Positions 1 through 24,034 of a stretch of DNA of 64,000 nucleotides are shown here, one piece after another. Made by a program: the position numbers and the translations under genes. Source of the DNA: Sandaracinaceae bacterium (lineage in GTDB: Bacteria; Myxococcota_A; Polyangia; Polyangiales; Sandaracinaceae); NCBI GenBank assembly GCA_040218145.1, contig JAVJQK010000145.1, positions 1 to 64,000 on the forward strand. The letters are read 5' to 3'. The notes beneath the pieces were generated by a model. The model was not told the DNA's origin, did no database searches, and saw only the letters and a program-made list of their open reading frames with translations. The number at the start of each line of letters is the position of its first letter. The stretch's first letter is position 1.

Positions 1-345
1 CTCGGCGCTCGTGCCGAGCAGCGCCCTCGCGACCGTCTCGCGAGCGTGGCGCGCGCCGAGATCCGTCCGCAGTGCCACCGGTGGTCTCATGGAGACCGGT
101 GATATCGGTGGAGGTGGTGCGCTTCGTCGCCGGTGGCGACACTTCTCGGCCTCCGCCTGCGAGCGGCCCTTGGACTTCTGGCTCTCGACGACCGCCTCGA
201 AGCGCTCTTCGAAGACGTCCGAGCAGCGCTTCAGGAAGAGGACGCCGAAGATGTACTCCTTGAACTCCGAGGCATCCATCTTGCCGCGGAGGATGTCCGC
301 GGCGGCGAAGAGGTGACGTTCTAGCTGGGGTAGGGTGAGGGGCAT
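1..345 (-). pseudogene. hsdM: HsdM-like type I restriction-modification methyltransferase, N-terminal fragment
   Basis: Reading leftward from ATG 345 (AGGA ribosome site just upstream) the first ~66 residues match the helical N-terminal domain of type I DNA methyltransferase subunits: [20 protein letters not shown], then [33 protein letters not shown]. HsdM with HsdS and HsdR methylates or restricts DNA. After about residue 66 (near position 141) the frame stays open to the window edge, but none of the three frames continues with the expected FFVP/RW region. The gene therefore looks interrupted or recombined rather than merely cut by the window. N-terminal identity is fairly sure; the cause of the break is not. 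Confidence 0.6.
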
Positions 346-700
346 CGTCCTGTACTTCGGGGCTGGGAGACCCGCCGAGCGCCGTGCCGTAGAGGCCGAA
401 TCGAGGCGCGCGGAGCTCCCGTCGTGGGGGCCCGGAGAATAGTCCGCGCCCGGTCGCTGTGAACAGGCTGCCGATGGGCTCGAGTCGACCCACCCGATGA
501 ACGCCGTCACGCCGCGATCCCCCTCACGCGACCCAGGCTACGCAATTAGTCGCGCTCGGGATACGAGCATTACTGCTCTACTCCGCGCGCGGGGAACTAG
601 AGCAAGATTGCTAGAGCGGAGGGCGTGACCATCGCGCCCGATGGATCGAGTCACCAAATCCCATCGACAACGGCCGATACGACCTCCTTCGTCTCAGAGG
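346..700. other. non-coding interval
   Basis: No convincing gene. It holds the upstream region of the reverse-strand hsdM fragment and the 3' flank of the gene ending at 701. Around 570-620 there are repeated TAGAGC/GCTCTA words with an imperfect dyad, which could be an operator or weak terminator. Nothing else stands out. Confidence 0.4.
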
Positions 701-1858
701 CTATGCGTGTCGAGACAGCCAATCGAGGATCGTCCTAGTGAGGCGGTCCAGAGTTTCCTTTGCCTCGCGCGCCTCTTCGGGTCGCACGTCCACCTCAGCG
801 GCTGTAGCGCCCTGCTCGAGGAACTTGCCCGCGTGGATCCGCTGACGTCGCCGGTTGAGGTCTTCACATCGACCCGCAAGTGACCCGTCTAGGATCGCGT
901 GCTCGCCACCTCTTTTTGCTCCCCAGATGAGGTCGTTGAAGGACCAGTGCTTGGGTGACTTGTCGAGTTGCCCCCCTGTCATGCACCCATGCTTCTGAGC
1001 GGTGTCGTGGACGAATGACAAGGCTGCTTCTCCGAGAGCCGCTGCAACTACGATCGTCGCTGTCGGTGTCTGGACCTCCGACAACACGCTCAACTCGCGC
1101 CGAGTGTGGCTCCACCACATGCGATAGTCGCCGTGCCCGAGCTTCGGGAGTTCGGCCTCGAAGGCGACAAGGGGCTCGGCCGACGACGGTCGCTGATCGT
1201 GTCGCCGGCTGATGATGTCTTCGATCTGGGTGACCAGCTGTCTAAGGGAGGAGTCGCCTCCTCGCCCTGCGCTATGCGGGGCGCTGTGCTCACTGGTGTT
1301 TCGCGGCCGCTGCTGAAAGATCTGCGGGCGCGCCGTGAGCAAGCCGTCCTCCTGTTCGTCGAGATACTGCGCCACGCAATAGCTCGCGATGGCGATCTGG
1401 ACAGATTTCTCGGTGTGCCCCTTGTCGATCGCCCGGGCGAGTAGCACGTCGCGCCCGACCTTGGCTGCTCGCTGGCCGTGGGTCTTTGCTACAGCTTGGA
1501 ACTCGTCCACGACGAACTGGTAGGCGTCCACGTCGCGGAACTCGTCACGGTCGAAGAACCAGACGAGATCCGTTGCATCGCGGTCGGCCAGAACCAGGCG
1601 ACCATCGCGCCGACCGTGGAGGTGCGAGCCGAGTGCGTCTCGCAGCTCGCCCTCACCGATGTCGTGCCTCGACGCTAGTTCCCGTAGTTCGCCCCAGGTC
1701 AGACCGTGTTCGGTAGGAGCGGCAAACACCGTGGCTCGTAGGGCGCGGCGAATGAACTGTTGGACTGTCGCAATGCGTTGCATGTTCGTACCGTTGATCG
1801 CTGCCTGGGCCCGGTCCAGTCCGCCCGCCTGTTCCGATGTCGGTCGGGCCGGGAACAC
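701..1858 (-). CDS. unrecognised 385-aa protein, possible HEPN-like C-terminus
   Basis: Function unknown. The frame is open for 385 codons from GTG 1858; an ATG at 1783 (MQRIATVQQF) is an equally possible start and neither has a clear ribosome site. The N-terminal part looks like a charged helical domain; the middle (about residues 190-215) is a Ser/His/Arg-rich linker. The C-terminal ~130 residues are helical and contain RRRQRIHAG, which fits the R-x4-6-H pattern of HEPN-fold proteins (many are toxin or abortive-infection RNases). That assignment is inference from one motif. Codon use is less GC-extreme than the host genes on the right, consistent with accessory DNA beside a broken hsdM and a prophage. 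Confidence 0.6.
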   Translation of the reverse strand: MFPARPTSEQAGGLDRAQAAINGTNMQRIATVQQFIRRALRATVFAAPTEHGLTWGELRELASRHDIGEGELRDALGSHLHGRRDGRLVLADRDATDLVWFFDRDEFRDVDAYQFVVDEFQAVAKTHGQRAAKVGRDVLLARAIDKGHTEKSVQIAIASYCVAQYLDEQEDGLLTARPQIFQQRPRNTSEHSAPHSAGRGGDSSLRQLVTQIEDIISRRHDQRPSSAEPLVAFEAELPKLGHGDYRMWWSHTRRELSVLSEVQTPTATIVVAAALGEAALSFVHDTAQKHGCMTGGQLDKSPKHWSFNDLIWGAKRGGEHAILDGSLAGRCEDLNRRRQRIHAGKFLEQGATAAEVDVRPEEAREAKETLDRLTRTILDWLSRHA

Positions 1859-2289
1859 GCGTGCGTGCCCGATCTCGGGTTCGAGATCACTCAGCTTTCG
1901 CCCACCCCGTCTTTGGAACGCGCGCCTCAGAGCGTTGAGGTCCTGACCAGAGCACGCGGCGCGGACCCGTGCTCGGCGGGAATCGACCCGCCAAGACGAG
2001 CCGAATTCGGTGACCGCTCCCGACTACACCCACCACGCAGGCTTCGAGGAGCGGTCCAATGGGACGACTTCCACCAGTCTGTCAGATCCTTGGTTGAGTC
2101 GTCCAGCCGCCATGATGACCGAGCGCCACTCGACCGTGGACATGGCTGAGAAGCGCTTCCCGTTCCGCGGCACGTATGGCCCCGCCTTCAAGGCCCTTGC
2201 CGCCTCCGATCGAGCGATCGGAACCCCCACACGACGAAGCCCGGCGCGAGCGACTAGCTCCAACCGGGCGACATCACACACCAAATCCA
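1859..2289. other. non-coding host flank of attL
   Basis: About 430 bp between the 385-aa gene and the left attachment repeat. Short open frames exist on both strands but none has a ribosome site or protein-like composition across its length. This DNA would originally have lain downstream of tRNA-Gly before the prophage inserted. Confidence 0.4.
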
Positions 2290-2333
2290 GAGCGGGCGAT
2301 CGGGCTCGAACCGACGACATTCAGCTTGGGAAG
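2290..2333. repeat. attL core: 44-bp copy of the tRNA-Gly 3' half
   Basis: Identical over 44 bp to 34437-34480. It contains the T-arm, the 3' acceptor strand and the anticodon region but lacks the 5' half, so it is not a functional tRNA. It marks the left end of the prophage. Confidence 0.93.
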
Positions 2334-2421
2334 GTCACAGCCGGCCCCAGAGCTACTACGCATTTCCAATGAATACAACACGTTAGCGTCCCACGGTGTT
2401 GCGTGCCAACGCGCTGTGGCT

Positions 2422-2448
2422 CGACGGAATGGACACTTCGATGGACAC
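2422..2448 (+). repeat. 27-bp direct repeat, candidate integrase arm site (left)
   Basis: Perfect 27-bp match to 34337-34363 in the same orientation. The core contains two 12-bp direct units beginning ATGGACAC. It lies about 90 bp inside attL, as expected for arm-type integrase sites on a P arm; that role is inferred. Confidence 0.6.
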
Positions 2449-2600
2449 CTCCCCGCCGCTTCCGTCAGAAAGCACCGCTCGCCTGCGTCCCTTCCGGCGT
2501 GGACCCCTACCACGGCGAAGAAGAACACCCCCCGGCCCCCTGGCCGGCCGAGGATGACCCCTGGCGGTAGTCCGGAGCCGAGGCTGCTATCGTCTCGTCG

Positions 2601-2774
2601 TTGGGAGTAAAGGACACCGATCCCGATCCGGGGAACACCTGGGACCGCTTGCGGACGCTGAGTGAGGCGGCGCAGCGTGCCCGCGCGCTCGGAGACGACG
2701 AGCGCGCGGACGCCCTCGAGGAGGAGTGGCTCGCGCTTCGCGCGCAGCTGATCAAGAGCGAGGCGGGTGGCTGA
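2601..2774 (+). CDS. small hypothetical protein (57 aa) at prophage left end
   Basis: A short frame with protein-like composition: a hydrophilic start (KDTDPDPGNTWDRLR) followed by an amphipathic helix rich in Ala, Arg, Glu and Leu, ending SEAGG. The only reasonable start is TTG 2601; there is no Shine-Dalgarno site, but a TATCGT hexamer 7 bases upstream could serve as a -10 for a leaderless message. It reads rightward, against the neighbouring late genes, as prophage-end accessory genes often do. Function unknown; moderate doubt that it is expressed. Confidence 0.35.
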   Translation: MGVKDTDPDPGNTWDRLRTLSEAAQRARALGDDERADALEEEWLALRAQLIKSEAGG

Positions 2775-2965
2775 TCTCGACGAGCGGCGCGGTTGCGCGC
2801 ATCCAGCGCCGGGGCCACCTTTGACCCGTGGCCGACAGACAGCAAATGCCAATGCCCCCCAAGGCCGCCCGGGACGAGGTCTCCCCTCTAACCCGCGAGC
2901 TACCCTCGTCGGAAGCGATGGCTCGACGACTGCGGTTTCAGCAGGCTGTCCGCGGTCGGGTCGCG

Positions 2966-3020
2966 GGAGTTTCCGCCGCAGTCGCGGGAGAGTCCGGGGA
3001 GTTTCCGCCGCAGTCGCGGG
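2966..3020. repeat. two 23-bp direct repeats
   Basis: The word GGAGTTTCCGCCGCAGTCGC (plus GGG) occurs at 2966-2988 and again at 2998-3020, a 32-bp period, just downstream of the last leftward late gene. No hairpin or U-run was seen. Role unknown. Confidence 0.6.
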
Positions 3021-3027
3021 GAATGGC

Positions 3028-3315
3028 CTACGAGTAGAGCTCCTCGAGCAGCCGGTCGATCGACGCGTCGTCTTCGGCCAGGTCGGCCTCGGTGATCACG
3101 CCCTCGCGCGCGTCGACCCGCCGCTTGAGCTCCTCCAGCGCGGCGCGCGCCTTGCCCACGCCCAGGGTCCGGACGAGCCCAGCCACCAGCCGGGCCACCT
3201 CCGCGCCCTGGCGCATGATCAGCTGCACCTCGAGCGGGACAGCGGCGCCGATCCGCTCGGTGGTCGCCGCCGCCCCCTCGAGCACGTCCGCGATGATCGC
3301 GCGCGCCTCATCCAC
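3028..3315 (-). CDS. hypothetical phage protein (95 aa)
   Basis: Last gene of the leftward late operon. ATG 3315 overlaps the end of the upstream gene by 8 bp, so translation is probably coupled. The protein is entirely helical and acidic at its C-terminus (EADLAEDDASIDRLLEELYS) with a central LKRR stretch. No transmembrane segment, no recognised domain. It lies among lysis and tail-end genes, so a late role is likely, but the function cannot be read from the sequence. Confidence 0.6.
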   Translation of the reverse strand: MDEARAIIADVLEGAAATTERIGAAVPLEVQLIMRQGAEVARLVAGLVRTLGVGKARAALEELKRRVDAREGVITEADLAEDDASIDRLLEELYS

Positions 3316-4036
3316 GGGACAGCCCCCACGCCGGCGGCGCGAGATCGAGCGCGCCCGGCACCGGCAGCGCGCCGTCCTCGAGGGTGTTGGCGCAGGACGC
3401 GATCGCTCGGTACTTGTCGAGCGCTCGGCGGGCCACGGGGATGAAGTCCAGGGCCGTCACGCGCCCGTCGCCGTCGCCGGTGGCGGGCTCGCGGCCGGTC
3501 TGCTGGGCGAGCCAGAGCGCCTCCACGTAGCCGCTGACGGCGGAGCCGTAGGTGCGGTGCGCGTCGATCACGCACTGCCACTCGCGCTCCGCCTGCGCGC
3601 GGGCGGCCTGCGCTTCCTCGAGGGAGGCGCCCTGCTCGTGGGCGCGCCGCACCGCCGTTTCGATGGCGGTCAGGCGCATCCGCCGGATCGTCGGCTCGCT
3701 GAGGATCTGCGCGTCCTGCATGCCTTGCGCGACGGCCGTGTGCTGCTCAATCCAGCTCGCCCCGCACCCGGGGAGCGCGGCGGCGAGCACGAGCACGAGG
3801 AGCATGGAGAGGGGCCCGGCGCCGCCACCGCCGCGCCTGCCGGAGCCGTTCTTGGGTTCGGTCACTCGGGGCAGGAACATGGTCGTCACCCCTCCGGTCA
3901 CGAGGCCGGTGCCCGCGAGTAGGAGGGTCGTCGAGTGCTCGCCGGCGTTCCCGGTCACGATCAGGACGACTCCGCCGGCCGCGAGCAGGACGCCCGCGAC
4001 GGTGGAGATCAGCTTCATCAGGGTCTGGTTGGTCAT
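3308..4036 (-). CDS. phage membrane protein with internal lipobox (holin/spanin-like region)
   Basis: From ATG 4036 (MTNQTLMKLI) the product is ~242 aa. Two hydrophobic helices (about residues 6-30 and 36-54) form a holin-like hairpin, followed by a Gly/Arg linker. Then comes MLLVLVLAAALPGC, which has the form of a lipoprotein signal with lipobox LPGC, whose Met is at position 3805. The remainder is a soluble helical domain. Either it is one protein with three membrane segments, or two products are made in the same frame, a holin-like protein and a lipoprotein from the internal start. It follows the membrane protein and endolysin genes, so a lysis role fits. No strong ribosome site at 3805, so the second product is uncertain. 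Confidence 0.6.
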   Translation of the reverse strand: MTNQTLMKLISTVAGVLLAAGGVVLIVTGNAGEHSTTLLLAGTGLVTGGVTTMFLPRVTEPKNGSGRRGGGGAGPLSMLLVLVLAAALPGCGASWIEQHTAVAQGMQDAQILSEPTIRRMRLTAIETAVRRAHEQGASLEEAQAARAQAEREWQCVIDAHRTYGSAVSGYVEALWLAQQTGREPATGDGDGRVTALDFIPVARRALDKYRAIASCANTLEDGALPVPGALDLAPPAWGLSRG

Positions 4037-4150
4037 GGTGTCTCGATGTCTCGATGCATGGACGCCCCCGTCCAAGCGGGCCGCCGTCGAGCCCCCGAGG
4101 ACGAGGGCAAGTCGTTGGGAACGCGACGGCGGCCCGCTTCGACGTGCCTC

Positions 4151-4489
4151 CTACCGGCGCAGCCTCCGGTCCAGGGCCTGCTCGATGCGCGAGAGCCGCT
4201 GCTCGAGCTGGGCGCGCTCGAGGGCGCGCGTGGTGGTGTCGCTCTGCCGCCACGTGTCGACCTTCGTGCCGAGGGCGGTGACGGACCTGTCGAGCGCGTC
4301 GAGGTGGTCGAACCGCTCCTCGAGCGCCGTCATGCGCGCTTCGACGGCGCCGACGCGCTGATCGGTCGCCGCTTCGATGGCGGCGCTGTTGCGCCACTGC
4401 GCGAAGGCGCCGATCAGCACGGCGGTGATGACGGTGATCGCCACCCCGCCGATGATCGTTCGGGCGAGCTTCCGGCTGTCGTCGTCCAT
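4151..4489 (-). CDS. small membrane-anchored coiled-coil phage protein (112 aa)
   Basis: Start ATG 4489 (MDDDSRKLARTIIGG) is chosen because AGGAG lies 8 bases upstream; an ATG at 4507 sits before that site. One transmembrane helix (about residues 9-29) is followed by a long coiled coil with heptads (VEARMTALEERFDHLDALDR). This topology fits inner-membrane spanins or phage membrane scaffolds. It is immediately downstream of the endolysin and upstream of a second membrane protein, which supports a lysis cassette. The lysis role is inference from order and topology. Confidence 0.65.
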   Translation of the reverse strand: MDDDSRKLARTIIGGVAITVITAVLIGAFAQWRNSAAIEAATDQRVGAVEARMTALEERFDHLDALDRSVTALGTKVDTWRQSDTTTRALERAQLEQRLSRIEQALDRRLRR

Positions 4490-4527
4490 GTGGATCTCCT
4501 CTTCCATGCGGCTCCTCACTGCGGGCT

Positions 4528-5370
4528 TCAGTACGGACCCAGCCCCGACGGGTCCCACTCTGTCGGGATCGGACGGCCTTCGCGCCAGGGGCTCTCCCGC
4601 TGCGCCTCGAGCCCGAGCTCGTCGACGGCGTACTCGAGCACGAGGCGGCGCCAGATCTCTTCGCCTGGGTCGGAGCGCCGGTTGTCGCTCGACTGCCGGT
4701 GGGCGACGACATAGCGGATCGGCATGCCCTCGCGGCGCCCCTCGTCGACGAGCCACGTCAACGCAGCCTGGGCCGCAATCAGGGTCTCCTCGGTCAGCTC
4801 AGACGGGGAGCCGCCCCAGGTCGTGAGGAGGTCCTCGCGCGGGAGCGTGTCGGGGTCGTCGAGGAGGCCGGGGTATCGACCCTCCACCTCGAGCCCCAGC
4901 GAGTAGCCGTTGAAGCGGCCGGCATGCTGCACGTAGGTGCGCAGCGGGTGCGCCGCCACGAAGTAGCCCGCGCGGAACGCCATGGCGTGGCACGCGACGT
5001 CGAGGGCGCGGCGGGCCCGCGCCAGCTCCACGTCGCCGCCCGCGAACTCGACCGCGCGGCGGCTCACGCCGTACTCGGCCGCGGTCTGGTGCACGACGAT
5101 GGTGGTGACCTCCTCGGGCGCCCGCATGACGACCTGGTTTCCCCGGATGAGCGTCTTGCGGCGGCCTCCCGGATACCAGTAGTCCTGCTCGTCGCGCAGG
5201 TCGTAGAAGCCCGCCTCGGGGGGCGCGTCGCACTGCCCGGGCAGCCGGAGCCGGTCGGCGACGTCCTCGGCCGCGGCGTGCGCTTCCCGCTCGCTCAGGC
5301 CGCGCTTGAGCGCCTCGATGTAGACCGCGTCGCAGACGGCGTCGCGTGGGGTGCAGGTGGGCTCATTCAT
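4528..5370 (-). CDS. endolysin, N-acetylmuramoyl-L-alanine amidase (Amidase_2 type)
   Basis: 280 aa, ATG 5370 with AGGAG upstream. It would cut the amide between muramic acid and the peptide to release phage. The central and C-terminal regions carry the amidase_2 pattern: TTIVVHQTA (first zinc His) about residue 90, a NGYSLGLEVEG segment, VVAHRQSSDNRRSDPG near residue 225 with the second His and the Asp of the DPG motif as metal or catalytic residues. The N-terminal ~80 residues are a helical extension of unknown role. No signal peptide, so export should depend on the neighbouring membrane proteins. Confidence 0.85.
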   Translation of the reverse strand: MNEPTCTPRDAVCDAVYIEALKRGLSEREAHAAAEDVADRLRLPGQCDAPPEAGFYDLRDEQDYWYPGGRRKTLIRGNQVVMRAPEEVTTIVVHQTAAEYGVSRRAVEFAGGDVELARARRALDVACHAMAFRAGYFVAAHPLRTYVQHAGRFNGYSLGLEVEGRYPGLLDDPDTLPREDLLTTWGGSPSELTEETLIAAQAALTWLVDEGRREGMPIRYVVAHRQSSDNRRSDPGEEIWRRLVLEYAVDELGLEAQRESPWREGRPIPTEWDPSGLGPY

Positions 5371-5383
5371 GGGTTTCTCCTCT

Positions 5384-6133
5384 TCAGACGCTCGCCAGGT
5401 TGAAACCGAACGCCTCGTTGACGCGACTGGTCAGCGTGGCGAGCTCGCCGACAGAGAAGCCGCCGGCCTTCGCGATCAGCGCGTAGCAGGAGCCGACGAA
5501 CTCGCTCGGCGCCGCGGCGAAGATGGCCAGCTTGTCGGTGCCGAAGGCTATCGGCCCGAGGGTGGCGTTCGCGGTGGCGCCGGCCACGTCGTTCGTCTTG
5601 AGGAACGCCGCGTCGCCGTCCGGCGAGAAGAAGCGCCCCCGCTGGCAATAGAGCGTCCCGTCATTCGTGAGGCTCGCTCCCACCGCCTGCAGCGTCGTGC
5701 CCCCCTCGAAGACGCGAAAGACGCTCAGCCCGGACCAGCGGGGGATCAAGGCGAAGTGCGTCTGACCCTGGCCACCGATCAAGAACCTCTGGGCATTCGC
5801 CGCGGTCGAGCTCATCACGGCGACCACGTCGAGCACGCCGCCGTCCGGCACGTCCAGCGCCGAAGCGGCGAGCCGGCTCAGGAACGCCGTCCCGCTCGGG
5901 ACCACCAGGTGGGAGCCGGGGACGTACGTCACCGCACCGGTGGAGCGGACGGCGTCGAGCGCGGAGCCGGCCGTGCCCAGGTTGCGCCACTCCGTGACCT
6001 CGCTCGAGCCGTCGAGCGTGACGCTGCTCGCCTCCGGGCCCCAGAGATAGAGCTGCGCCCCCAACGGGTCGAAGCCCGTCACTCGCGCACGACGCGCGGC
6101 CTGGGCCAACAGAGCTCCGGCGGCGCGGTGCAT
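5384..6133 (-). CDS. phage tail appendage protein, lectin/LamG-like fold suspected
   Basis: 249 aa from ATG 6133, whose ATG overlaps the TGA of the upstream gene (ATGA), so the two are coupled. The sequence alternates short beta-type hydrophobic runs with Gly/Ser/Thr loops (LYLWGPEASSVTL, GGVLDVVAVMSS, FLIGGQGQTHFALIP), as in concanavalin/LamG-like jelly rolls on phage fibres. The C-terminus ends in a helical FSVGELATLTSRVNEAFGF. Binding to a cell-surface glycan is a guess from fold and position between tail genes and endolysin. Confidence 0.6.
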   Translation of the reverse strand: MHRAAGALLAQAARRARVTGFDPLGAQLYLWGPEASSVTLDGSSEVTEWRNLGTAGSALDAVRSTGAVTYVPGSHLVVPSGTAFLSRLAASALDVPDGGVLDVVAVMSSTAANAQRFLIGGQGQTHFALIPRWSGLSVFRVFEGGTTLQAVGASLTNDGTLYCQRGRFFSPDGDAAFLKTNDVAGATANATLGPIAFGTDKLAIFAAAPSEFVGSCYALIAKAGGFSVGELATLTSRVNEAFGFNLASV

Positions 6134-6555
6134 CACGCGACCTCGAGATCTCCGGCGATCCACACTTCGGTGGCGGTCCGCCACTCGAGCACGGCGCCCT
6201 GGTACTGCTCGGCGATCGCCGGGACGAAGGTCGCGCCGTGGCGCAACGTCACCCCGACGCCGGGGACGAACGTCACCTTGCCAGCGCCTGCCTGGTTGTG
6301 TCGGCTGCTCGTGCCAGCCGTCCCGGCGTCGACCGTCACGGTCACCGGGGAGGCCGACTCGTAATAGACGCTGCGGTCGCGGTCCCCGTCGCCGGTCGTG
6401 CGTGTGGTCCCCAGCTCGGTGACCTGCTCGGCGCTCAGCGAGACGTTGGCGCGCCGGATGCGCTTGGACGAGCCGTCCGCGTCGTCGACCACCAGGAGCT
6501 GGTCGTCGTCGGTGAGCGTCAGGATCTCGGGCAGCTCGGTGACTCGCTTCGACAT
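6133..6555 (-). CDS. small phage tail-fibre-like protein (140 aa)
   Basis: ATG 6555 with GAGG upstream. It begins MSKRVTELPEILTLTDDDQL, a pattern common at the start of phage fibre and appendage proteins (attachment segment LPE..TLTDDDQLLVVDDADG), followed by beta-rich Thr/Val/Gly sequence (SPVTVTVDAGTAG). The end overlaps the start of the next appendage gene by one base. Not identified beyond that; likely part of the host-recognition module. Confidence 0.55.
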   Translation of the reverse strand: MSKRVTELPEILTLTDDDQLLVVDDADGSSKRIRRANVSLSAEQVTELGTTRTTGDGDRDRSVYYESASPVTVTVDAGTAGTSSRHNQAGAGKVTFVPGVGVTLRHGATFVPAIAEQYQGAVLEWRTATEVWIAGDLEVA

Positions 6556-6562
6556 GTCGTCC

Positions 6563-7210
6563 TCAGAGGTTCGAGAGCTTGCTGCTCTGCAGCTCGACCA
6601 GGGCCGCGCGGATCCGGTCGTTGTTGGTCGCGGCGTCGTTGCCCGCGGCGACCTCGAGCGACCACTGCGCCCCCAGCGAGACCGCGACCGGGCTGCCCGA
6701 CAGGTCGATCGTCACCCACTGCAGGTCCGTCGTGCCGTCGTCGAACACCGACCCCACCACGGTGGTGGTGACGCTGATGGGCTTGGCGAAGCTGATGCCG
6801 TAGTTGTCGCGCTGGAGCTCCACCTTCATGCGGTTGGTGCCCGCGCGCGCGACCCCGGGGTTGAGGAGCACGCGCACCCGGACGATCGAGGCGTGGCGCG
6901 GCAACCGCGACAGGTCCCACCACGCGAGCCCGAAATTCCGGCGCACGTCGAGCGCGCCGCGGGCCGGGAGGAAGTCCGCGTTGTTCAGCGTCTCGAGCTG
7001 CAGCGCGCCCGCTCCGAGGTAGCCGATCCAGCTGAGCGGCGCGGGGAGGTCGATCTCGCCGGCGCCGTCGAAGCGACTGAACACGTGGCGCGTCCGGTCC
7101 GCGAGGGCCTGGAACGGGACCTCCACCGACAGCGCGTTGCGCGGGTCGCCGTCGACCGGAACCGTGATCGGGCTGGTGAAGGCATCTACGTCGACGAGGT
7201 CTTTCGGCAT
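6563..7210 (-). CDS. phage tail appendage protein (215 aa), unrecognised
   Basis: ATG 7210 with GGAGAG 5 bases upstream. The protein is beta-rich (ITVPVDGDPRNALSVEVPF, VRVRVLLNPGVARAGTN) and has no membrane segment. It lies between the gpI-like baseplate gene and the fibre-like genes, the usual place for baseplate wedge or appendage proteins. No specific family recognised. Confidence 0.55.
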   Translation of the reverse strand: MPKDLVDVDAFTSPITVPVDGDPRNALSVEVPFQALADRTRHVFSRFDGAGEIDLPAPLSWIGYLGAGALQLETLNNADFLPARGALDVRRNFGLAWWDLSRLPRHASIVRVRVLLNPGVARAGTNRMKVELQRDNYGISFAKPISVTTTVVGSVFDDGTTDLQWVTIDLSGSPVAVSLGAQWSLEVAAGNDAATNNDRIRAALVELQSSKLSNL

Positions 7211-7220
7211 GACTCTCCGG

Positions 7221-8000
7221 CTAGCAAACGAACTGGACGGCCAGGTTTCCGCCCCAGACCTGTCCGGGCGAGGGGTCGTCGTCGGCCCACGTGCCGCCCG
7301 GCGGGTAGCCCCACACGTCGCCCTCGGGCGGCAGCAGGGTCAGGTAGATGCGGTCGATGTGCGCCGCGCTCCACTCGCGCGGCACCGCGCAGAACAGCTC
7401 CCGCTCCGCGTCGCTCATCGCGTAGATCGACACCTCCGCGAGCAGCGGCTCGCCGCTCTCGGCCAGCAGCGGCTCGCCGCTCTCGGTCAGCAGCGGGATC
7501 CCCACCGTCGTGCCGCTCAGCGAGAAGAACAGGAAGAGGCGAGCCCACCGCGCCGGGTGCTCGCCGTCGCCGCCCCAGCTGATCGTGTCCTCGGTGATCG
7601 CGCCGGCGACGTCCACCTGGTGGCGGAACCCGGAGTTCGCGACGAGCGCGATCGGTACGGCGAGCGAGCTGACGAAGAACGCGTGCAGCTGCCCGAGCAG
7701 CGCGTACGGTCCGCCGCGGGTCCGGTGCGCGTCCCACCACGTGAGCATCCGGGCCGCGAACGTGGCCCCGTCCTCGCCCGGCCCACGGAGGATCTGGCGC
7801 TGGCGCCCCAGGTACGTCAGCGCGCGGGGCTGCGCGGCCGACGGGAAGCGCAGCGCGACGCCGTCCACCGCCCGCTGTGTCGCCACGTCCACCGCCTCAC
7901 CCAGCGCGGCCATCAGCGCGCCGCCCACCGGGCGCCGCAGCCAGGGAGGGCAGATGAGGAGGATCTCGGCCGCGAACGAGACCGGAGGAGAGCTCGCCAT
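7221..8000 (-). CDS. phage tail protein I-like baseplate protein (259 aa)
   Basis: ATG 8000 overlaps the stop of the baseplate J remnant (ATGA), the usual J-I gene coupling of contractile-tailed phages. N-terminal half shows PPWLRRPVGGALMAALGE and RALTYLGRQRQILRGPGED, typical of gpI-like baseplate proteins. The region LLTESGEPLLAESGEPLLAE is an in-frame tandem repeat of an 8-residue unit, coded by near-identical DNA at about 7440-7500. C-terminus is beta-rich (GDVWGYPPGGTW). Its partner gene is truncated, so it is probably a relic with an intact frame. Confidence 0.6.
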   Translation of the reverse strand: MASSPPVSFAAEILLICPPWLRRPVGGALMAALGEAVDVATQRAVDGVALRFPSAAQPRALTYLGRQRQILRGPGEDGATFAARMLTWWDAHRTRGGPYALLGQLHAFFVSSLAVPIALVANSGFRHQVDVAGAITEDTISWGGDGEHPARWARLFLFFSLSGTTVGIPLLTESGEPLLAESGEPLLAEVSIYAMSDAERELFCAVPREWSAAHIDRIYLTLLPPEGDVWGYPPGGTWADDDPSPGQVWGGNLAVQFVC

Positions 8001-8523
8001 CAGCTGGCCACCAGGTGGACGGTCGCGGTGACGACCCCGAGCACGGGCGCCTCCGTCGGCGCGACCGGCACGTCGGCCGCCGGGACGCTCAGCTGCAGGT
8101 CGACGAGGTGCTCGGCGCCGATGGTCTCCCCGATCGCCGCCTCGAGCAGCTCGGCGTACACGCTCCCCGCGCCCGTGAACTTGCGCAGGCCGCCGATCGG
8201 CAGCTGCCCCACGAAGGGCGCCAGCGCCGTCTCGACCTGGGCGGCGACCTCGCTCGCCGTCAGCCCGATCGTGCTGCGCACCCACACCTCGTACGTCACC
8301 GCGATGACGAGCGGCGTGGCGCTCGCGATCGTCGTGCTCACCCCCACGGGCAGCACGAGCTCGCGGATGGCCACGTCGACGGCGCCCAGCGGGGTGCTCG
8401 GGTCGCCCACCACGCCGGTCACTCCGCCCGAGCCGGTCGCCACGTACACGGCCACGTGCCCCGTCCCGTCCGCGATCGTCGTCACGCGCGTGACGCCCGC
8501 CCCGATGCCGCCGGTCGTCCGCG
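8000..8523 (-). pseudogene. baseplate J-like protein, C-terminal half only
   Basis: Downstream of about 8523 the frame reads GIGAGVTRVTTIADGTGHVA, AVDVAIRELVLPVGVSTT, PLVIAVTYEVWVR and ends TVHLVAS, the pattern of the C-terminal half of baseplate J (P2 gpJ/Mu gp47) proteins, which normally run ~350 aa or more. The N-terminal half is absent: upstream DNA is the start of a capsid gene in another frame. The frame is open further to 8599, but that part is an out-of-frame reading of the capsid sequence. Confidence 0.7.
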
Positions 8524-8691
8524 CGCCGTGTCGAGGAGCCAGTTGATGCGCTCCTTCTTCGCGCCGCTGTCCATGCGCCGCGCGATGAGGTTCCACCACG
8601 ACGCGTTCAGCAGCCGCTGGTATTCGCGCGAGCTGATCACGCTCATGTTCGACTCGAGGTCGAAGAGGAATTCAGGGGTGAGGGCTCCCAT
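8482..8691 (-). pseudogene. major capsid protein, N-terminal fragment fused out of frame to baseplate J
   Basis: From ATG 8691 the product starts MGALTPEFLFDLESNMSVIS and continues SREYQRLLNASWWNLIARRM, DSGAKKERINWLLDTA, which resembles the N-terminus of Mu-like phage major head proteins. It directly follows a decoration protein, as expected. After residue 56 (position 8524) the capsid sequence stops and the DNA is baseplate J coding sequence in a different frame; the open frame then ends at 8482. A complete capsid protein would be ~300 aa, so this cannot assemble a head. Confidence 0.7.
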
Positions 8692-8711
8692 GGGTCGTTC
8701 CTTCGTTCAGC

Positions 8712-9113
8712 TCAGGGGTGCTCGATGAGCACGCCGTAGATGGAGTGGACCGCCCAGACCGTTCCGGCCGTCGAGCGGGTGGCGGTACCGTCCGAGGCGG
8801 ACACGGTACGAGAGTCGAGGATGAACGCGTCGTTGCCGATGTCGGCGGCCTGGACGTCGTTCGGTGCGACGTCGTTGTCCCACCAGTGGAGCTGCAGCTC
8901 CCGGAAGAGGCGCACGCGCACTTGCTTCGCGCCGTCACCGGTCAGGTCCTCGTCGAAGTAGCCGATCGGGCGCAGCGTGGTGGACGGCTGCCCCGCGACG
9001 ATCAGGGCGGTCGCGGTGTCGAGGCACGCCATGTGCCCCTCCTCCGCGACCTCCGTGTTCGCCAGGGTGTGCTCGAAGTAGCTCCAGCTCTCGGTGCGAG
9101 TCATGCGGCGCAT
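8712..9113 (-). CDS. phage head decoration-like protein (133 aa)
   Basis: ATG 9113 (AGGGAG upstream); lies between the protease-scaffold gene and the capsid start, the usual slot for a decoration or stabilising protein. It contains EEGHMACLDTATA and LRPIGYFDEDLTGDG with a beta-rich core, then RTVSASDGTATRSTAGTVWA. That layout (gateway value, colour of beta strands, DSRTV segment) fits small head decoration proteins of Mu-like phages. Moderate confidence in the role. Confidence 0.6.
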   Translation of the reverse strand: MRRMTRTESWSYFEHTLANTEVAEEGHMACLDTATALIVAGQPSTTLRPIGYFDEDLTGDGAKQVRVRLFRELQLHWWDNDVAPNDVQAADIGNDAFILDSRTVSASDGTATRSTAGTVWAVHSIYGVLIEHP

Positions 9114-9117
9114 GTCG

Positions 9118-9789
9118 TCACGCTCCCTTCTCGCCGCTGCGCGTGGGCGCCGGCGGCGTGGACTGCTGCCCGGGCGCGCCGTTGGTCACCGGGACCTGGG
9201 CACCGAGGATCAACTTGTTGCCCTGCTGGACGACGCCCGCGGTGGTGCGGGTCAGGCCCATGCGGGCGTCGAGCGCGGCCTTCTCGGCGGGCGGCAGGCG
9301 GCTCGCCTGGCCGTCGCCTTGCCCCGCGCCCAGCGTGGGACGGACGCTGCTCGCCGCGGCGGGGTTGGCGCGCGGCGGCGCCTCGATCGCCGAGACGATG
9401 GCCTGCACCTCCGTCAGCGGCTTCTTCTGGAGGACCTTGACGAGGCTCGGCGACAGGTCGGGGCGGCTGGCGAGAAGGCGCGCGCGCTCTCCCTCCTCCC
9501 GCTCCCGCTCGACCGCCGCGAGCCGCGAGGTGAGATCCTGCACGGCGCTGGCGAGCTCGCCCGCGGTCGACGCGGTGACGTTCGAGGTCTTGGCGCTGGC
9601 CTTCGCCTTCTTCGCCTTCTTCGCCTCCTCGTCCTCTTCCTCGCTCTCCGCGGTGGCGTCGTCGTCGTCTTCGTCTTCGTCCATGGCCTTGAGCGCGCGG
9701 CGAGCGCGCTTGCGGGCCTGCTCGTCCGCCTCCTCGTCGTCGGCGATGGCCTGGAGAGCCTTCCTCGCCTTCTCTTCGTCTTCTTCCAT
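9118..9789 (-). CDS. possible nested scaffold protein from an internal start
   Basis: Within the protease gene, ATG 9789 (MEEDEEKARK) is preceded by GAGGAATCC, a good ribosome site, exactly at the junction between protease and acidic scaffold region. This would give a ~223-aa free scaffold protein in the same frame, as lambda Nu3 is made inside gene C. Seen: the site and its placement. Inferred: that it is used. Confidence 0.45.
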   Translation of the reverse strand: MEEDEEKARKALQAIADDEEADEQARKRARRALKAMDEDEDDDDATAESEEEDEEAKKAKKAKASAKTSNVTASTAGELASAVQDLTSRLAAVEREREEGERARLLASRPDLSPSLVKVLQKKPLTEVQAIVSAIEAPPRANPAAASSVRPTLGAGQGDGQASRLPPAEKAALDARMGLTRTTAGVVQQGNKLILGAQVPVTNGAPGQQSTPPAPTRSGEKGA

Positions 9790-10569
9790 GGATTCCTCGT
9801 TCGTTGCGCCCGCCGCCCGGGCGGGGGTGTTGCCGCTCGCCAGCGCGAGCACGTCCTCGAAGCTGCTCAGCGCGTCCGCCAACCCCAGTCGCACCGCCTC
9901 GGGGCCCAGGACGCGGTCACCCTGCAGAGCGCGCAGCGCGGCGACGTCGACGCCGCGGTGTTCGCGGACCAGCTCGAAGAACGTCTCCGCGAGCTGGTCC
10001 ACGCGACGCTGCGACGCGGCCAACGCCGCCTCCGTGAGCGGCACGTGCGGGTCGCCGTCGGTCTTGCGCGCACCGCTCGCCACCAGCGTGACCGCGACCC
10101 CGTGCCGCTCGTCGGCCGCGGTCACGTCGAAGAAGGTCTCGATCACCCCGATCGAGCCAATGTCGCTCGAGGGCGTCGCGTGGATCTCGTCGGCCGCGGT
10201 GCTCAGCGCGTAGGCCGCGCTCGCCGCCGCCCCGTCGACGTAGGCGAGCAGCTTCACGCCCGCCGCCCGCGCTGCCCGCCGCAGCGCCCGCGCCGTCTCG
10301 AACGCGCCGGAGACCGTCCCCCCGGGCGAGTCGACCTTCAGCACGATCGCGCGGGGCTGCGTCTCGAGCGCCGCCGTGAAGCGCTCCATGATCCCCTCGT
10401 ACGAGTCGCCCCAGTACTCCTTGTGGTGCGCGAGCGGCCCGCGGATCGTGATCACCGCCACGCTCGAGCGCGTCTCGATCGCCGGGGTGGAGGGCTGACC
10501 CTCGCTCACGACCATCCCGAGCGCGCGCGGGTCCAGCGCCAAGAGACCGCGGGGGGTGTAGTACCTCAC
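9118..10569 (-). CDS. phage prohead protease (S49/SppA-like) fused to a scaffold domain
   Basis: 483 aa from GTG 10569, which overlaps the portal stop (GTGA). Residues ~20-250 form an S49 serine protease: VAVITIRGPLAHHKEYWGDS, IVLKVDSPGGTVSGA, then AYVDGAAASAAYALSTAADE with the nucleophile Ser, and SSDIGSIGVIE. This clips head proteins during capsid maturation. Residues ~262-340 are a highly charged acidic/basic coiled coil (MEEDEEKARKALQAIADDEE, then runs of Glu, Asp and Lys), typical of scaffold. The C-terminus is Pro/Gly/Thr-rich. The order portal-protease/scaffold-decoration-capsid is standard. Confidence 0.85.
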   Translation of the reverse strand: MRYYTPRGLLALDPRALGMVVSEGQPSTPAIETRSSVAVITIRGPLAHHKEYWGDSYEGIMERFTAALETQPRAIVLKVDSPGGTVSGAFETARALRRAARAAGVKLLAYVDGAAASAAYALSTAADEIHATPSSDIGSIGVIETFFDVTAADERHGVAVTLVASGARKTDGDPHVPLTEAALAASQRRVDQLAETFFELVREHRGVDVAALRALQGDRVLGPEAVRLGLADALSSFEDVLALASGNTPARAAGATNEESMEEDEEKARKALQAIADDEEADEQARKRARRALKAMDEDEDDDDATAESEEEDEEAKKAKKAKASAKTSNVTASTAGELASAVQDLTSRLAAVEREREEGERARLLASRPDLSPSLVKVLQKKPLTEVQAIVSAIEAPPRANPAAASSVRPTLGAGQGDGQASRLPPAEKAALDARMGLTRTTAGVVQQGNKLILGAQVPVTNGAPGQQSTPPAPTRSGEKGA

Positions 10570-12002
10570 GCGACCTCCCGCAGGCGCACCGGCGCGGGGC
10601 CCGGGTCGGCCTGTCGGCGGCGGGTGGGGATCCCGAACCTCGCGATCATGGCGTCCACGTCGAGCTCGTGCGCGGCGCCTTCGGCTCCGCCTCCGGTGGC
10701 GAGCAGCGCCTCCGCCATCGCGGTGATCGCGTTGGCGGTCGTCACCATGGCCTGCGCCTCCGCCGCGCGATCCTTCGGCGGCGTCACGTCCCACTCGACG
10801 ACCGCGCCGTCACGAAGCGCCGCCTCACCCCAGCGGCCGAGGATCCAGGGCGGCAGCACCTGGGTGTTGACCGTGTACGCGAGCGCGTCGCTGGTGGCCT
10901 TGATCAGGTCGGCGCGGATCGAGCGGTGGATGTCGCTGTTCTGGAACCCCGCCCCGCCGTCCGAGGTGACCAGCTGTCCGGCCACCGCCATCTTGAACTC
11001 GACGTCCTGCGCCGCGATCGTCTTCTCGAAGCTCTCGTAGCCCCGCCCGTTGCTCTCGAGCAGCTTCACGTCGTAGCCGGGCGTCAGGCTGAACACCGTG
11101 TTGATGCCCCACGCCATGACGCGCTTGAACCAGGCGTCCTTCTGGCCCTCGCTCGCCCCCTGGGGCGCCAGCGCCACCCGCGCCGGGTTGGCGAGCTTCG
11201 CCTCCCAGTTGTCCTTGTGGATCGAGGCGTGCTCCTTGCGAATGTAGGCGCGCCCCACCGCGCGCCAGAGCGCGGCCTGCCACGGCGCACAGCGGCCCCC
11301 CGGGACGTGCAGCACCCACCGGCCGTCGCCCGGCGTGATGGGGATCAGCCCGACGTTCGAGCGGAAGTACCAGCGGTTCTCATACCAGCGGTAGATCAGG
11401 AACTCCGGGTCGTACCGGACCAGCACGGGGTAGTTGCGCCCCGGCACGGGCAGCAGCTCGCCGACGCCGACGCCGACGAGGACCCCGTCGGCCGCCAGGG
11501 CGCTCAGCTCCGGCGCGGGACACATCTCGTCGAAGACGCTCCGCGTCTGCTCGTGGCCCAGCTCGAGCGCGGCGACGATCTCGTCTCGTCCACGGAACCG
11601 CTTCGGCAGCCGGACCAGGCCGTCGGTGCGCGTGGAGAGCACGCCCGCCAGCACCCCGTCCTTGCGCGCCGCGCGCATGAGCCGCGCCGCACCAGCGAGG
11701 TGGCCCGCGTCCGCGTTGTGCTCCGCCGCCTCGAGGTCGCTGAGGTACCAGCGCGTCTGGCTGAAGGGGATCGGCTGCAGCCCGCCGCCGAACTGCTCGC
11801 GAAGGCGCTCCACCGCCGGGTCGTCGAGCGTCAGCGCACCCTCGGCAGCCGGCCGAGTGTAGGCCGAGATGCCAAGGAGCGATGCTATGCGAGAGGCGAT
11901 CCCCACGTCCGGAAGCGTGAGGAGTTCGCCAGCGCCAGGTGTATGATTCGCACCGGTTGACCCCGGTTGACCCGGTTGACCCCCCCCCGTCGAACGACTC
12001 AA
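10566..12002 (-). CDS. phage portal protein (DUF935, Mu gp29 type)
   Basis: 478 aa. It forms the dodecameric portal through which DNA enters the head. Family features: FSQTRWYLSDLEAAEHNADA near the start, LEDDP-like helices, AWFKRVMAWGINTVFSLTPG, and the C-terminal PPWILGRWGE..ALRDGAVVEWDV segment. The start is uncertain: TTG 12002 follows the stop of the small HTH gene directly, but the first ~30 codons are coded by a CCGGTTGA repeat and look artificial; a GTG at residue 33 (VGIASRIASLLGIS) is a good alternative. The stop overlaps the protease start. Confidence 0.8.
   Translation of the reverse strand: MSRSTGGGQPGQPGSTGANHTPGAGELLTLPDVGIASRIASLLGISAYTRPAAEGALTLDDPAVERLREQFGGGLQPIPFSQTRWYLSDLEAAEHNADAGHLAGAARLMRAARKDGVLAGVLSTRTDGLVRLPKRFRGRDEIVAALELGHEQTRSVFDEMCPAPELSALAADGVLVGVGVGELLPVPGRNYPVLVRYDPEFLIYRWYENRWYFRSNVGLIPITPGDGRWVLHVPGGRCAPWQAALWRAVGRAYIRKEHASIHKDNWEAKLANPARVALAPQGASEGQKDAWFKRVMAWGINTVFSLTPGYDVKLLESNGRGYESFEKTIAAQDVEFKMAVAGQLVTSDGGAGFQNSDIHRSIRADLIKATSDALAYTVNTQVLPPWILGRWGEAALRDGAVVEWDVTPPKDRAAEAQAMVTTANAITAMAEALLATGGGAEGAAHELDVDAMIARFGIPTRRRQADPGPAPVRLREVA
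11953..11979. repeat. three tandem CCGGTTGA words at the portal start
   Basis: CCGGTTGA occurs at 11953, 11963 and 11972, spaced 9-10 bp, followed by a run of C. They lie between the small HTH gene and the body of the portal gene. This could be a binding site for that HTH protein or a simple repeat expansion. Confidence 0.5.
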
Positions 12003-12185
12003 CTACCAGGAATCACGCGGAATCCCGTAGTTGACCTCCAGCGCGTTTTTCTTCGCGTCCGAGGGCTTTCGGCGCCCCGAGAGCCAGTGGTAGACCGCTC
12101 CGGGCGTCACTCGGCAGCGCGCCGCCACGTACTGCACCTCCGTGCGGCGCAGGATCTCGAGCAAGGCGGCGCGCCCACGCGACAC
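12003..12185 (-). CDS. small helix-turn-helix protein (60 aa) between terminase and portal
   Basis: GTG 12185, starting 4 bases after the terminase large-subunit stop. It carries a compact HTH: VQYVAARCRVTPGAVYHWLS, then GRRKPSDAKKNALEVNYGIP and a final W. The layout (HTH, basic GRRKP, helix, GIPxxxW) is the same as in the N-terminus of the terminase small subunit at 14394. It may be a second DNA-packaging recognition protein or a late regulator. DNA binding is likely; exact role unknown. Confidence 0.65.
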   Translation of the reverse strand: MSRGRAALLEILRRTEVQYVAARCRVTPGAVYHWLSGRRKPSDAKKNALEVNYGIPRDSW

Positions 12186-12189
12186 GCTG

Positions 12190-13818
12190 CTACCGGCGCC
12201 TCCATGCGTCCGCCCCCGCGTACGGGTCGAACGCGTGCTCCGCGAGCTCCTCCGCCGGCTCGGGTCCGCGGCGCGCCGACGGAGGCACCCCGTCCCGCAG
12301 CGAGAGAGGAACCCAGCACGCCAGCGCCAGCGCGTCGTAGCGGTCCGGCGAGCGGCCCAGCTGGTCCCGGCGCCGTAGCACCTTCTTCTGCGGGACCAGC
12401 TTCAGCCGCCCCGTGTGCGCCTGCTGCTCCCACTCCCACACGTGTAGCTCGGCCGCCAGCTTCGAGTCCTCGGGGATCGCGCCGCCCTCGCGCATCCAAC
12501 CCTCGAGGTTTGCAGTCAGCTCGTCGCGCATGCGGTCGAAGACGTGCGGCTGGCGCACCGCACGATCGGACGCGCGCACCGCCACCAGCTCGAACGGCTC
12601 CTCCCCCTTCCGCTCCTCGAGGAACCGCAGGAACTCGCCGTACACCTTCGCGCCCACCGCCCCCTCGCGGTCCAGCACGATCACCGGCTTCTCCCGACGG
12701 CGCCCCAGCCGCTCGACGATGCCGAGCGCGTGGACGAGGTGCGCCGCCGGCGAGAGCCCCGTGAACGCCACCAGCTCGAGCAGCTTCTGCCCCCGCCGCG
12801 GGGCGAACACCGCCTCGTCCCCGGTCCCGCTCTCGCCCGCTGGGTCGAGCCCCACGAACAGGCGCCCCTCGGCCTTCGTGTCCGCCCACCGGCTCTCCGC
12901 GTCCACGATCGCCGCGACGCTGAAGATCTTCCCGTCCTCCCGCTCGGCGAACTCTCCCTTGACGCGGATCAGGTACAGGGCGGACTCCTCGCCCCACATC
13001 TCCTTCTTCTCGTCGACCCACTCCTTCGTCGCCAGGCCGGGGACCACGACGCGCCCCTCGCGGCAGTTCGGCGTGTCCTCGGAGCTCGTCGTGATGCAGT
13101 GGAAGTACTTCGACTTGCCGTTGTGCGACTCGTAGAACTCCCCGCTCGTCTTCGTGGGGTTGCCCGTGTAGAGCACCCGGACCGTGCCCGGCCCGTCGCT
13201 CGCCCACCCGGCCCGGTTGCCCTCGAGCCCCTCGAAGATCTCGTCGGGGATCCCCGAGCACTCGTCGAACACGAAGAAAAGGTTCTTGCCGGCCGTGCCG
13301 GTGATCGCCTCGACGTCTTTGGCGGTGTAGCCCTTGATCTCGCGGAAGTTGTCGCTCACCAGCCCGGTCGCCGCGCGCTTCCCCAGCTTCCCGTCGATCA
13401 GCGCCGAGTGGGGGCACGGGCGCTCCGTCACACCCTCCGCCCGGCAGGCGAGACAGACCCCGCCGCGCTTCTTCATCATGGCGGTCTCCCGCCAGAGGAT
13501 GTCGTCCACCTGGCGTGCCACCGGGGCGCTCATGACTACGCGCGCGTCGTCGAAGGAGCTGTAGAACCACAGCCCGCACCCCGAGGCGGTGTTGGACTTC
13601 GACACCCGGTGGCCGGACTTCCAGGTCGTGCGCGGGTTGTCGCGCACGCTCTCGAGTACTTCGCGCTGCGTCGACCATGGCTCGATCCCGAGGATGTCCC
13701 GGAAGAACCCCACCGGGTCGGAGCGGTAGCGCGCCGAAGGCCAGCGGATCGCCCGCGCGAGCTTCCGTGCCTCCCGGTAGACCTCGAGCGCGTCGAGGAC
13801 GTAGAGCGACGCCACCAC
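12190..13818 (-). CDS. terL: terminase large subunit
   Basis: 542 aa, GTG 13818 (another GTG one codon on), 3 bp after the small-subunit stop. This is the ATPase/nuclease motor that packages phage DNA. ATPase half: GIEPWSTQREVLESVRDNPR (adenine motif), a degenerate Walker A in SGHRVSKSNTA, Walker B NLFFVFDECSGI, and coupling motif LYTGNPTKTSGEF. Nuclease half: LFVGLDPAGESGTGDEAV with acidic residues, and DRYDALALACW near the C-terminus. A CLACR..CPH cysteine cluster near residue 120 is an unusual insert. Complete by length. Confidence 0.88.
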   Translation of the reverse strand: MVASLYVLDALEVYREARKLARAIRWPSARYRSDPVGFFRDILGIEPWSTQREVLESVRDNPRTTWKSGHRVSKSNTASGCGLWFYSSFDDARVVMSAPVARQVDDILWRETAMMKKRGGVCLACRAEGVTERPCPHSALIDGKLGKRAATGLVSDNFREIKGYTAKDVEAITGTAGKNLFFVFDECSGIPDEIFEGLEGNRAGWASDGPGTVRVLYTGNPTKTSGEFYESHNGKSKYFHCITTSSEDTPNCREGRVVVPGLATKEWVDEKKEMWGEESALYLIRVKGEFAEREDGKIFSVAAIVDAESRWADTKAEGRLFVGLDPAGESGTGDEAVFAPRRGQKLLELVAFTGLSPAAHLVHALGIVERLGRRREKPVIVLDREGAVGAKVYGEFLRFLEERKGEEPFELVAVRASDRAVRQPHVFDRMRDELTANLEGWMREGGAIPEDSKLAAELHVWEWEQQAHTGRLKLVPQKKVLRRRDQLGRSPDRYDALALACWVPLSLRDGVPPSARRGPEPAEELAEHAFDPYAGADAWRRR

Positions 13819-13821
13819 CGG

Positions 13822-14394
13822 TCAGTCCTCCAGGACTTCGGCGAGCCGCCTGTCGAGCTCGGCGGCGAGCGATGGCTCCACCGGCTCGAGCTGCTCGGCG
13901 AGCCAGGTCAGGATCTCGCGGAAGCGCTGCCACGCTGGGTTCTCGGCGATGACGCGCGCCTGGAGGAGCTCGGCCTCGGCCTTGGCACGCTCGGCCTCTC
14001 GCCGCAGGCGGGTGGTCTGGTCCAGGAGCCGCGACTCGAGGGTGAGGGCCTTGTTGTAGTCGGCGTCCATGAGGTCGCCCCGCTCGCGGCGCTGCCTCGC
14101 CTGCCTCAGCAGCTCTTCGGCGTGCTCGAGCGGCGTCAGCTCTCGGAGGTCGCGCTGCGCCGGGCGCGGCTGGTCGGCGGGCTGCTGTGACCACGCCTTC
14201 GCCGGGATCCCGAACGCGTCGGCCATGGACTCGCGGTTCTTGGCCCCCGGACGCTTCGAGCCCCGCCGCCAGTAGCTCACGACCTGCTTGGTGCAGCCGA
14301 GCCGTTCGGCGATCTCGGCGTGGCTCTCCGGGCGCGCCAAGAGCTGCCTCTGCCCTTCGCTCCGCGGCCGGACGCTGTCGGTGCCGTCGGTCAT
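13822..14394 (-). CDS. terS: terminase small subunit-like DNA-binding protein (190 aa)
   Basis: ATG 14394. N-terminal HTH: ESHAEIAERLGCTKQVVSYW, followed by RRGSKRPGAKNRESMADAFG and IPAKAWSQQ. The rest is long helices with coiled-coil character (EELLRQARQRRERGDLMDAD) and an acidic end. Position directly before terL and this HTH-plus-coiled-coil form fit a terminase small subunit, which recognises the packaging site. The region upstream (14395-14722) is non-coding and could hold the late promoter. Confidence 0.7.
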   Translation of the reverse strand: MTDGTDSVRPRSEGQRQLLARPESHAEIAERLGCTKQVVSYWRRGSKRPGAKNRESMADAFGIPAKAWSQQPADQPRPAQRDLRELTPLEHAEELLRQARQRRERGDLMDADYNKALTLESRLLDQTTRLRREAERAKAEAELLQARVIAENPAWQRFREILTWLAEQLEPVEPSLAAELDRRLAEVLED

Positions 14395-14722
14395 CGCGTC
14401 CGCCGGGGGCCGGGGGTCAACCGAATTTCAGCAGCACCGAAATCGATCCAAGCATGAACGCGACTCCTCTGGGCCTTGGAGTCTCCACAACTGTTGGAGG
14501 GGGGGTGCTCGTGGTGGCCCTGCCGTGCGCCGACGTTGGCGTGTCTGCGCTCGGGTAGCGCTCGTCCGGGGGTGGAGCCGTCCGTGGCGCTGAGGGGCGT
14601 AGAGGGCGAGTGAGGGCGTCGCGTCCGCATGCGTCGCCCCCTTGCGTGGAGGGTGGCACAGCGGGTGCTGGACCGCACTCGGCTGGAGGGTGCGCCGAGT
14701 GAGTGAACTGGGCAGCCGCCGC
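14395..14722. other. non-coding interval upstream of the late operon
   Basis: About 330 bp between primase 3' end and terS. A 7-bp perfect inverted repeat (ACTCGGC at 14677, GCCGAGT at 14694) lies 23 bp past the primase stop and may be a hairpin without a U-run. Near 14420-14445 the words ACCGAATTT and ACCGAAAT are repeated close to the terS start and may be a late-operator element. No credible gene. Confidence 0.4.
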
Positions 14723-17671: not shown

Positions 17672-17713
17672 CCTTCGTCCCCTTCACACGCCGGCCGACG
17701 CCGTCCGCGTGCG

Positions 17714-18298
17714 TCAGCCTCGAATCTTCGCCCTGACCGCCTGCAGCCGCCGAACGGCGGACTCCAGCGCGTCCGCCGCCTTCATCCGCTCCGGATCTCG
17801 TAGGTCGACCCACTTCAGGGGGGCGAGGACCTCCGCCGCTCCGATGACGCGTTGCTCAGCACGGCGAACCCGCTTCTCCTCGAGCATTCGCTTGACGAGG
17901 TACCCGACCGCGGGATCGCCCGAAGAGCCGGCGGGCGCACGACGGACCTCGAACTCCCCCAAGCCACGGAACGAGTGGAACAGGACCAAGCCCCAGCCCT
18001 CGTAGAGAGGATCAAAGCGAGGAACGCTCGACACCTGAGCCTCGATTGCAGCGGGCATGGCCAGCCAGCGTTCTGTCCCCACGCCCCCGTGCCAGTGGTG
18101 TGGTTTGTTGCGCTGCTGCACAAGCGCGTCGGACTTGGACGCCTTCGCCTCCACGAGCACAGCGCGCCCGTCTGCCGTGAACCCGAGGGCGTCCGGCCGC
18201 TCCTTCCCATGGCCGGCTCGCTCCGCGTACACGAGCTCGCAGAAGCACGCCTTGCGGAGCCACTTGCACGATACCTTCACCAGTTCTGCGTGTGTCAT
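17714..18298 (-). CDS. PD-(D/E)XK-like nuclease (194 aa)
   Basis: ATG 18298 with AGGAT upstream. The motif RPDALGFTADG..AVLVEAKASKSD near residues 34-55 fits the PD...(E)xK active site of restriction-fold nucleases (Asp 36, Glu 50, Lys 52). Further HHWHGGVGTERWLAMP and GWGLVLFHSF are consistent with a compact nuclease core; the C-terminus is a charged helix. It sits in the replication operon between the primase and an unknown gene. Target (branched DNA, host DNA or ends) cannot be told. Confidence 0.65.
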   Translation of the reverse strand: MTHAELVKVSCKWLRKACFCELVYAERAGHGKERPDALGFTADGRAVLVEAKASKSDALVQQRNKPHHWHGGVGTERWLAMPAAIEAQVSSVPRFDPLYEGWGLVLFHSFRGLGEFEVRRAPAGSSGDPAVGYLVKRMLEEKRVRRAEQRVIGAAEVLAPLKWVDLRDPERMKAADALESAVRRLQAVRAKIRG

Positions 18299-18302
18299 CT
18301 GG

Positions 18303-18962
18303 CTATCCTGCCGCATGGCCGCCGGGGCAGCGCGCTTCGGTGTCGATGGACGCGCGTGCGAGCAGGAGCGCCGCGGTCTCGTACGCCTCGGCGTCGACGA
18401 GGGGCGCGAAGAGGTCCAGCTCGGTGCGCGTCGCGGCATCGCGAACGGCGCCGAGCGAGTGCTCCCCGACGAGCTCGGCGTCCGCCGCGCCCGCGCCGGT
18501 CGGGTACGCGCGCTGGATCCCGAGCGCCGCGAGGTGCGCGGCCGCGGTGAGCAGGCGGTAGCGGTGGAGCCCCGGAGCGCGCGCACCCGCTCGACGGATG
18601 GCCCTGTCCCTGAGCTGGCCCAGTCGCACGACGTCGAAGTCCGGCGCCGCCGGCTCGACGACGCAACGGCCGAGCAGGTCGCGGTCTACGTCCGGCCACT
18701 CGCCGCCCGGGCCCACGGCCACGTCGTACGCGTCCGCCAACCAGCCCCCGGCGACGCGCACGACCGTCAGGGCGGGAGCGCCGCGGAGGATCGCGAGCGG
18801 GAGGACGAGCTCGACGAGGTCGCACTCCCGCCATGCGTCAGCGAGCGTCTCCCACCGCTCGGCGTGCTGCAGGAGCGCGACCTCGTAGACGCCGGCCGCC
18901 CAGAGACGCTTCGCGACCCACCGCTTCGGCACGTAGCCGCTGACGCGCAAGTCGCGGCTCAC
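18303..18962 (-). CDS. hypothetical phage protein (219 aa)
   Basis: GTG 18962 overlaps the upstream stop (GTGA). N-terminal VSGYVPKRWVAKRLWAAGVY may be a small nucleic-acid-binding region; the middle is hydrophobic beta/alpha sequence, and the end is helical with a Cys-containing tail. No recognised family. Co-transcribed with primase and nuclease genes, so a replication-related role is possible. Confidence 0.55.
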   Translation of the reverse strand: MSRDLRVSGYVPKRWVAKRLWAAGVYEVALLQHAERWETLADAWRECDLVELVLPLAILRGAPALTVVRVAGGWLADAYDVAVGPGGEWPDVDRDLLGRCVVEPAAPDFDVVRLGQLRDRAIRRAGARAPGLHRYRLLTAAAHLAALGIQRAYPTGAGAADAELVGEHSLGAVRDAATRTELDLFAPLVDAEAYETAALLLARASIDTEARCPGGHAAG

Positions 18963-20068: not shown

Positions 20069-20102
20069 CGGACCCTCCCGGGGAGGGCGCTGACTGAGCG
20101 GC

Positions 20103-20717: not shown

Positions 20718-20753
20718 TGCGTACGTCTCCTGGACCGTGGGATGATCGGGAGC

Positions 20754-20903: not shown

Positions 20904-20921
20904 TCGCTGCCTCGGGCTGTC

Positions 20922-22282: not shown

Positions 22283-22407
22283 GCGCCGGTTTGCAGCCGC
22301 GCATGCGTGGTTACCGTGCTGAGACCGGCAAGGCGCGCGGCGGGGGTCCACCCGGCTCGCACGCTGCGGTACCCTTCCCGACGAACCCCGTGGGGAGGAA
22401 GGTCCAG

Positions 22408-22944: not shown

Positions 22945-22957
22945 GCAGCGCGACACG

Positions 22958-24009: not shown

Positions 24010-24034
24010 CGTCTCCTCAGAGGAGGGCAGGACG

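Follow-up and report, generated by a model that had tools for sequence, protein, structure and literature searches.

Most described defective prophages carry several accumulated lesions. Such 'cryptic' or 'grounded' prophages are a well-known kind of element, as reviewed (PMC6379469) and as catalogued for the E. coli O157 prophage pool (PMC2669165). Here, one such element is described from a window of 64,000 nucleotides (the whole stretch of DNA analysed) at the start of a contig of a Sandaracinaceae bacterium (JAVJQK010000145.1), for which the best explanation, held at a probability of about 0.86, is a temperate prophage of the myophage type, integrated in a tRNA-Gly gene and rendered defective when a single illegitimate-recombination event at a 2-bp microhomology removed 10,151 bp. 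The phage is of the contractile-tailed type with Mu-like head genes, as indicated by a PF06074 portal in the prophage and by PF10124, DUF2586/phrog_907 and PF04865 proteins in its complete relative; Myxococcus phage Mx4 (OK085710) is distant, with 27% (portal) and 34% (sheath) protein identity and a capsid without detectable tblastn similarity.

The prophage occupies positions 2290-34480 (32.2 kb in its deleted form), inserted in the 3′ end of the tRNA-Gly gene and flanked by both attachment sites. The 44-bp core of attL (2290-2333), a fragment of the tRNA-Gly 3′ end, is identical to that of attR (34437-34480), itself the 3′ end of the intact tRNA-Gly gene (34437-34510, minus strand). Queried with the portal protein, viral contigs yielded 38 relatives, including one near-identical complete phage, IMGVR_UViG_3300001730_000004 (G057; 41,538 bp), with a portal 100% identical over aligned residues 6-478. 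The prophage is colinear with this contig across the att site, whose identical 44-bp core is present there as attP with the two sites joined; because the sequence runs through the joined site, G057 represents an excised or packaged form. By the same comparison, a full-length version of the prophage would be ∼42.3 kb.

Three blocks account for the correspondence: window 14464-8525 matches G057 1-5939 with zero substitutions and one difference in a homopolymer; window 8526-2290 matches G057 16091-22327 at 100%; and window 34486-18349 matches G057 22278-38430 at 99.85%, over 16 kb of early and integration region. Thus the same late genes stand on both sides of the join, ∼12.2 kb in all without a substitution, whereas elsewhere the differences are seven substitutions, a further two at the edge of att, an indel of 15 bp that keeps the frame and an exchange of the primase module. 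A capsid-tail segment of 10,151 bp, G057 5940-16090, is missing from the window. As the late genes around the join are free of substitutions, the deletion is judged recent against the time since the two phages diverged.

The replication module has been exchanged between the two: the window carries a VapE-like primase/helicase gene (14723-17671, minus strand; PF05272, E=1.3e-80) within 14682-18349, in place of which G057 has a different primase/helicase gene (38430-41331). This difference implies that G057 is not the direct parent, and a VapE query found no other carrier of the window's module among viral contigs. The 15-bp indel lies near 19151, within a gene (18959-20137) that also contains two tandem 47-48-bp units at 19298-19392.

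At the join itself, the sequence-only reading had placed capsid residues 1-56 directly against the C-terminal part of baseplate J in another frame, and this arrangement is borne out, with the junction now located at 8525/8526. The truncated major capsid gene (8482-8691, minus strand) encodes 69 amino acids, of which the first 56 are identical to the 345-residue major capsid protein of G057; from there the frame enters baseplate J shifted by one base and reaches a stop after 13 foreign residues. The baseplate J remnant (8000-8526, minus strand; phrog_6, E=4.7e-7) begins at about codon 218 of 392 and is without its own N-terminus. In minus-strand orientation, CTCGACACGGC closes the left side and GCGCGGACGACC follows on the right, with the 2-bp microhomology 'GC' common to both. 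The longest exact match between the break regions (G057 5800-6240 against 15790-16390) is 11 bp and lies away from the join. This signature points to an illegitimate, microhomology-type mechanism, by which one event would have taken out everything between codon 56 of the major capsid gene and codon 218 of baseplate J.

The same short matches bear on whether the strain's prophage might in fact be complete, with the 10 kb lost in assembly or via a chimeric molecule. In favour of this stand the existence of a near-identical complete phage, the draft state of the genome (148 contigs) and the sighting of the deleted form in one record only; a false join might stem from a chimeric read, from chimera formation during amplification, or from an error in scaffolding or gap closing. 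However, the join has 2 bp in common and the longest exact match between the searched break regions is 11 bp, shorter than a k-mer or overlap collapse would need, and repeat-driven collapse at the breakpoints was rejected on these grounds; moreover, no Ns are present at the join. Had both forms been abundant, identical stretches of 6-16 kb would be expected to break a short-read contig, so the deleted form presumably dominated the sequenced material.

The content of the missing segment is read from G057, which, with 100% identical flanks, holds the capsid, sheath, tube, tape measure and baseplate block exactly where the earlier reading had predicted that a full-length relative would carry it, as 10,151 bp between the two join points. 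Lost with it are capsid codons 57-345 (the intact protein matches PF10124, Mu-like gpT, E=1.7e-13, and phrog_371); several genes in neck position without family matches; the sheath (DUF2586, phrog_907); a tail protein in the tube position (phrog_4579); the tape measure protein (phrog_58); baseplate-region proteins; and baseplate J codons 1-217 (intact protein PF04865, E=2.2e-22). In this respect the prophage belongs with the defective ones, having lost essential virion genes: capsid body, sheath, tube, tape measure and baseplate genes are absent. That they occur nowhere else in the window was also confirmed, since tblastn of the lost proteins against it gave nothing at E<=0.01.

Searches of the whole 11.06-Mb assembly extended this result. 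The first 7,956 bases of the missing segment were not found elsewhere in it as DNA: G057 5000-13895 matched strongly only at the retained 940 bp, other matches being short and of 72-88% identity. The sheath protein had no match in the assembly, and the capsid protein matched only the truncated copy. A split contig or a second prophage of the assembly carrying the missing segment was considered and not found by these DNA and capsid and sheath protein searches. In a draft estimated as 100% complete, the finding of the searched DNA on no other contig further weakens the artefactual explanation, which is considered unlikely. A foreign contig in the bin was also considered and rejected, because two stretches of the right flank, at 40.7-49.3 kb and 51.5-60.0 kb, are 99% identical to a second draft of the host species; the contig is thus not a binning error. 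That second draft lacks the att region and so bears neither on an empty attB nor on the deletion allele. Taken with the identical flanks, the evidence favours a deletion that is probably real in the cell as well as recent.

The claim that the whole tail module had been deleted holds in part: what is lost begins in the capsid body and ends midway through baseplate J, but the baseplate J C-terminus, the gpI-position, putative fibre and lysis genes stay. On the tail side, the retained genes comprise a tail protein in the gpI position (7221-7997) and a protein of unknown family in the putative fibre region (6563-7210), both 100% identical in G057 and without family match, and an Amidase_2 endolysin (4528-5370; PF01510, E=2e-10), whose intact frame agrees with the earlier reading's remark that lysis genes downstream are open. 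On the head side stand an HTH protein that is probably the small terminase subunit (13822-14394), judged by position and an HTH_3 match below the curated cut-off; the terminase large subunit (12190-13818; phrog_2, E=2e-25); the Mu-type portal (10566-12002; PF06074, E=3.5e-34); an S49-family head maturation protease (9118-10563; PF01343, phrog_53); and, adjoining the capsid gene, a decoration-like virion structural protein (8712-9113; phrog_1731, E=6.2e-16), all of these head and tail genes on the minus strand. On the plus strand, an HTH repressor-like protein (23258-23728; PF01381, E=5.5e-11) and a tyrosine integrase adjoining attR (33099-34394; PF00589, E=2.8e-19) are identical in G057. In the portal gene, a run of 9 G at 11988 in the window, shortly past the annotated TTG start, faces 8 G in G057, which suggests that either the true start is located farther downstream or one of the two records has a homopolymer error.

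Open frames are kept by the integrase, the repressor-like HTH gene, the terminase, portal, protease and amidase, and also by the genes checked across the differences between window and G057. Among the genes checked, the 10-kb deletion thus appears to be the only inactivating lesion. On induction, such a prophage could still excise, replicate and lyse its host, but would be expected to form no particles of its own.

Recurrence of the deletion among relatives was rejected: every relative, viral or genomic, with fetched sequence continuing beyond the protease keeps the capsid gene, and those reaching further have sheath, tube and tape measure in the same order after portal, protease and capsid (two loci, L025 and L071, end too early to show the capsid gene). 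The junction sequence had no match in any viral contig searched, and the intact left flank was present among them only in G057. In a genome of the same family (MAG UWPOB_DELTA5), two related prophages (L072 and L075) each have capsid, sheath, tube and tape measure genes.

The retained genes also invite the reading that the element has been domesticated, or kept under selection as a satellite through interference with, or packaging by, a complete relative: integrase, att sites, terminase, portal and lysis genes are open, a packaging site is possibly kept as well, and a near-identical complete phage exists in nature. This is, however, very improbable, as no sign of selection is seen, the deleted form is found in a single genome and without other copy, and a recent neutral deletion accounts for the same facts. 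A capsid-forming satellite of the cfPICI-like kind has an intact capsid gene of its own and borrows its tails from a helper, and was rejected with that gene cut at residue 56 of 345 and no second copy in the genome. Equally doubtful is a natural defective-interfering element, which would excise by its own integrase, be packaged by its own or a helper terminase into particles of the complete phage, spread and protect its host; the retained integrase, att sites and terminase, its sole support, could possibly be read in this way.

With a recent illegitimate deletion as the most likely explanation, the element gives an unusually clean view of prophage decay at what looks like its first step. It also assigns a host species and an exact att site to a phage that had been seen only in a metagenomic contig; general understanding is unchanged, this being a broken prophage of an ordinary kind, though very well documented. 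The defective prophages of E. coli K-12 and O157 (PMC6379469, PMC2669165) likewise keep integrase and regulatory genes and are without essential virion genes. Unlike those sets, the prophage described here displays a single, apparently very recent deletion, visible against an intact, near-identical reference.
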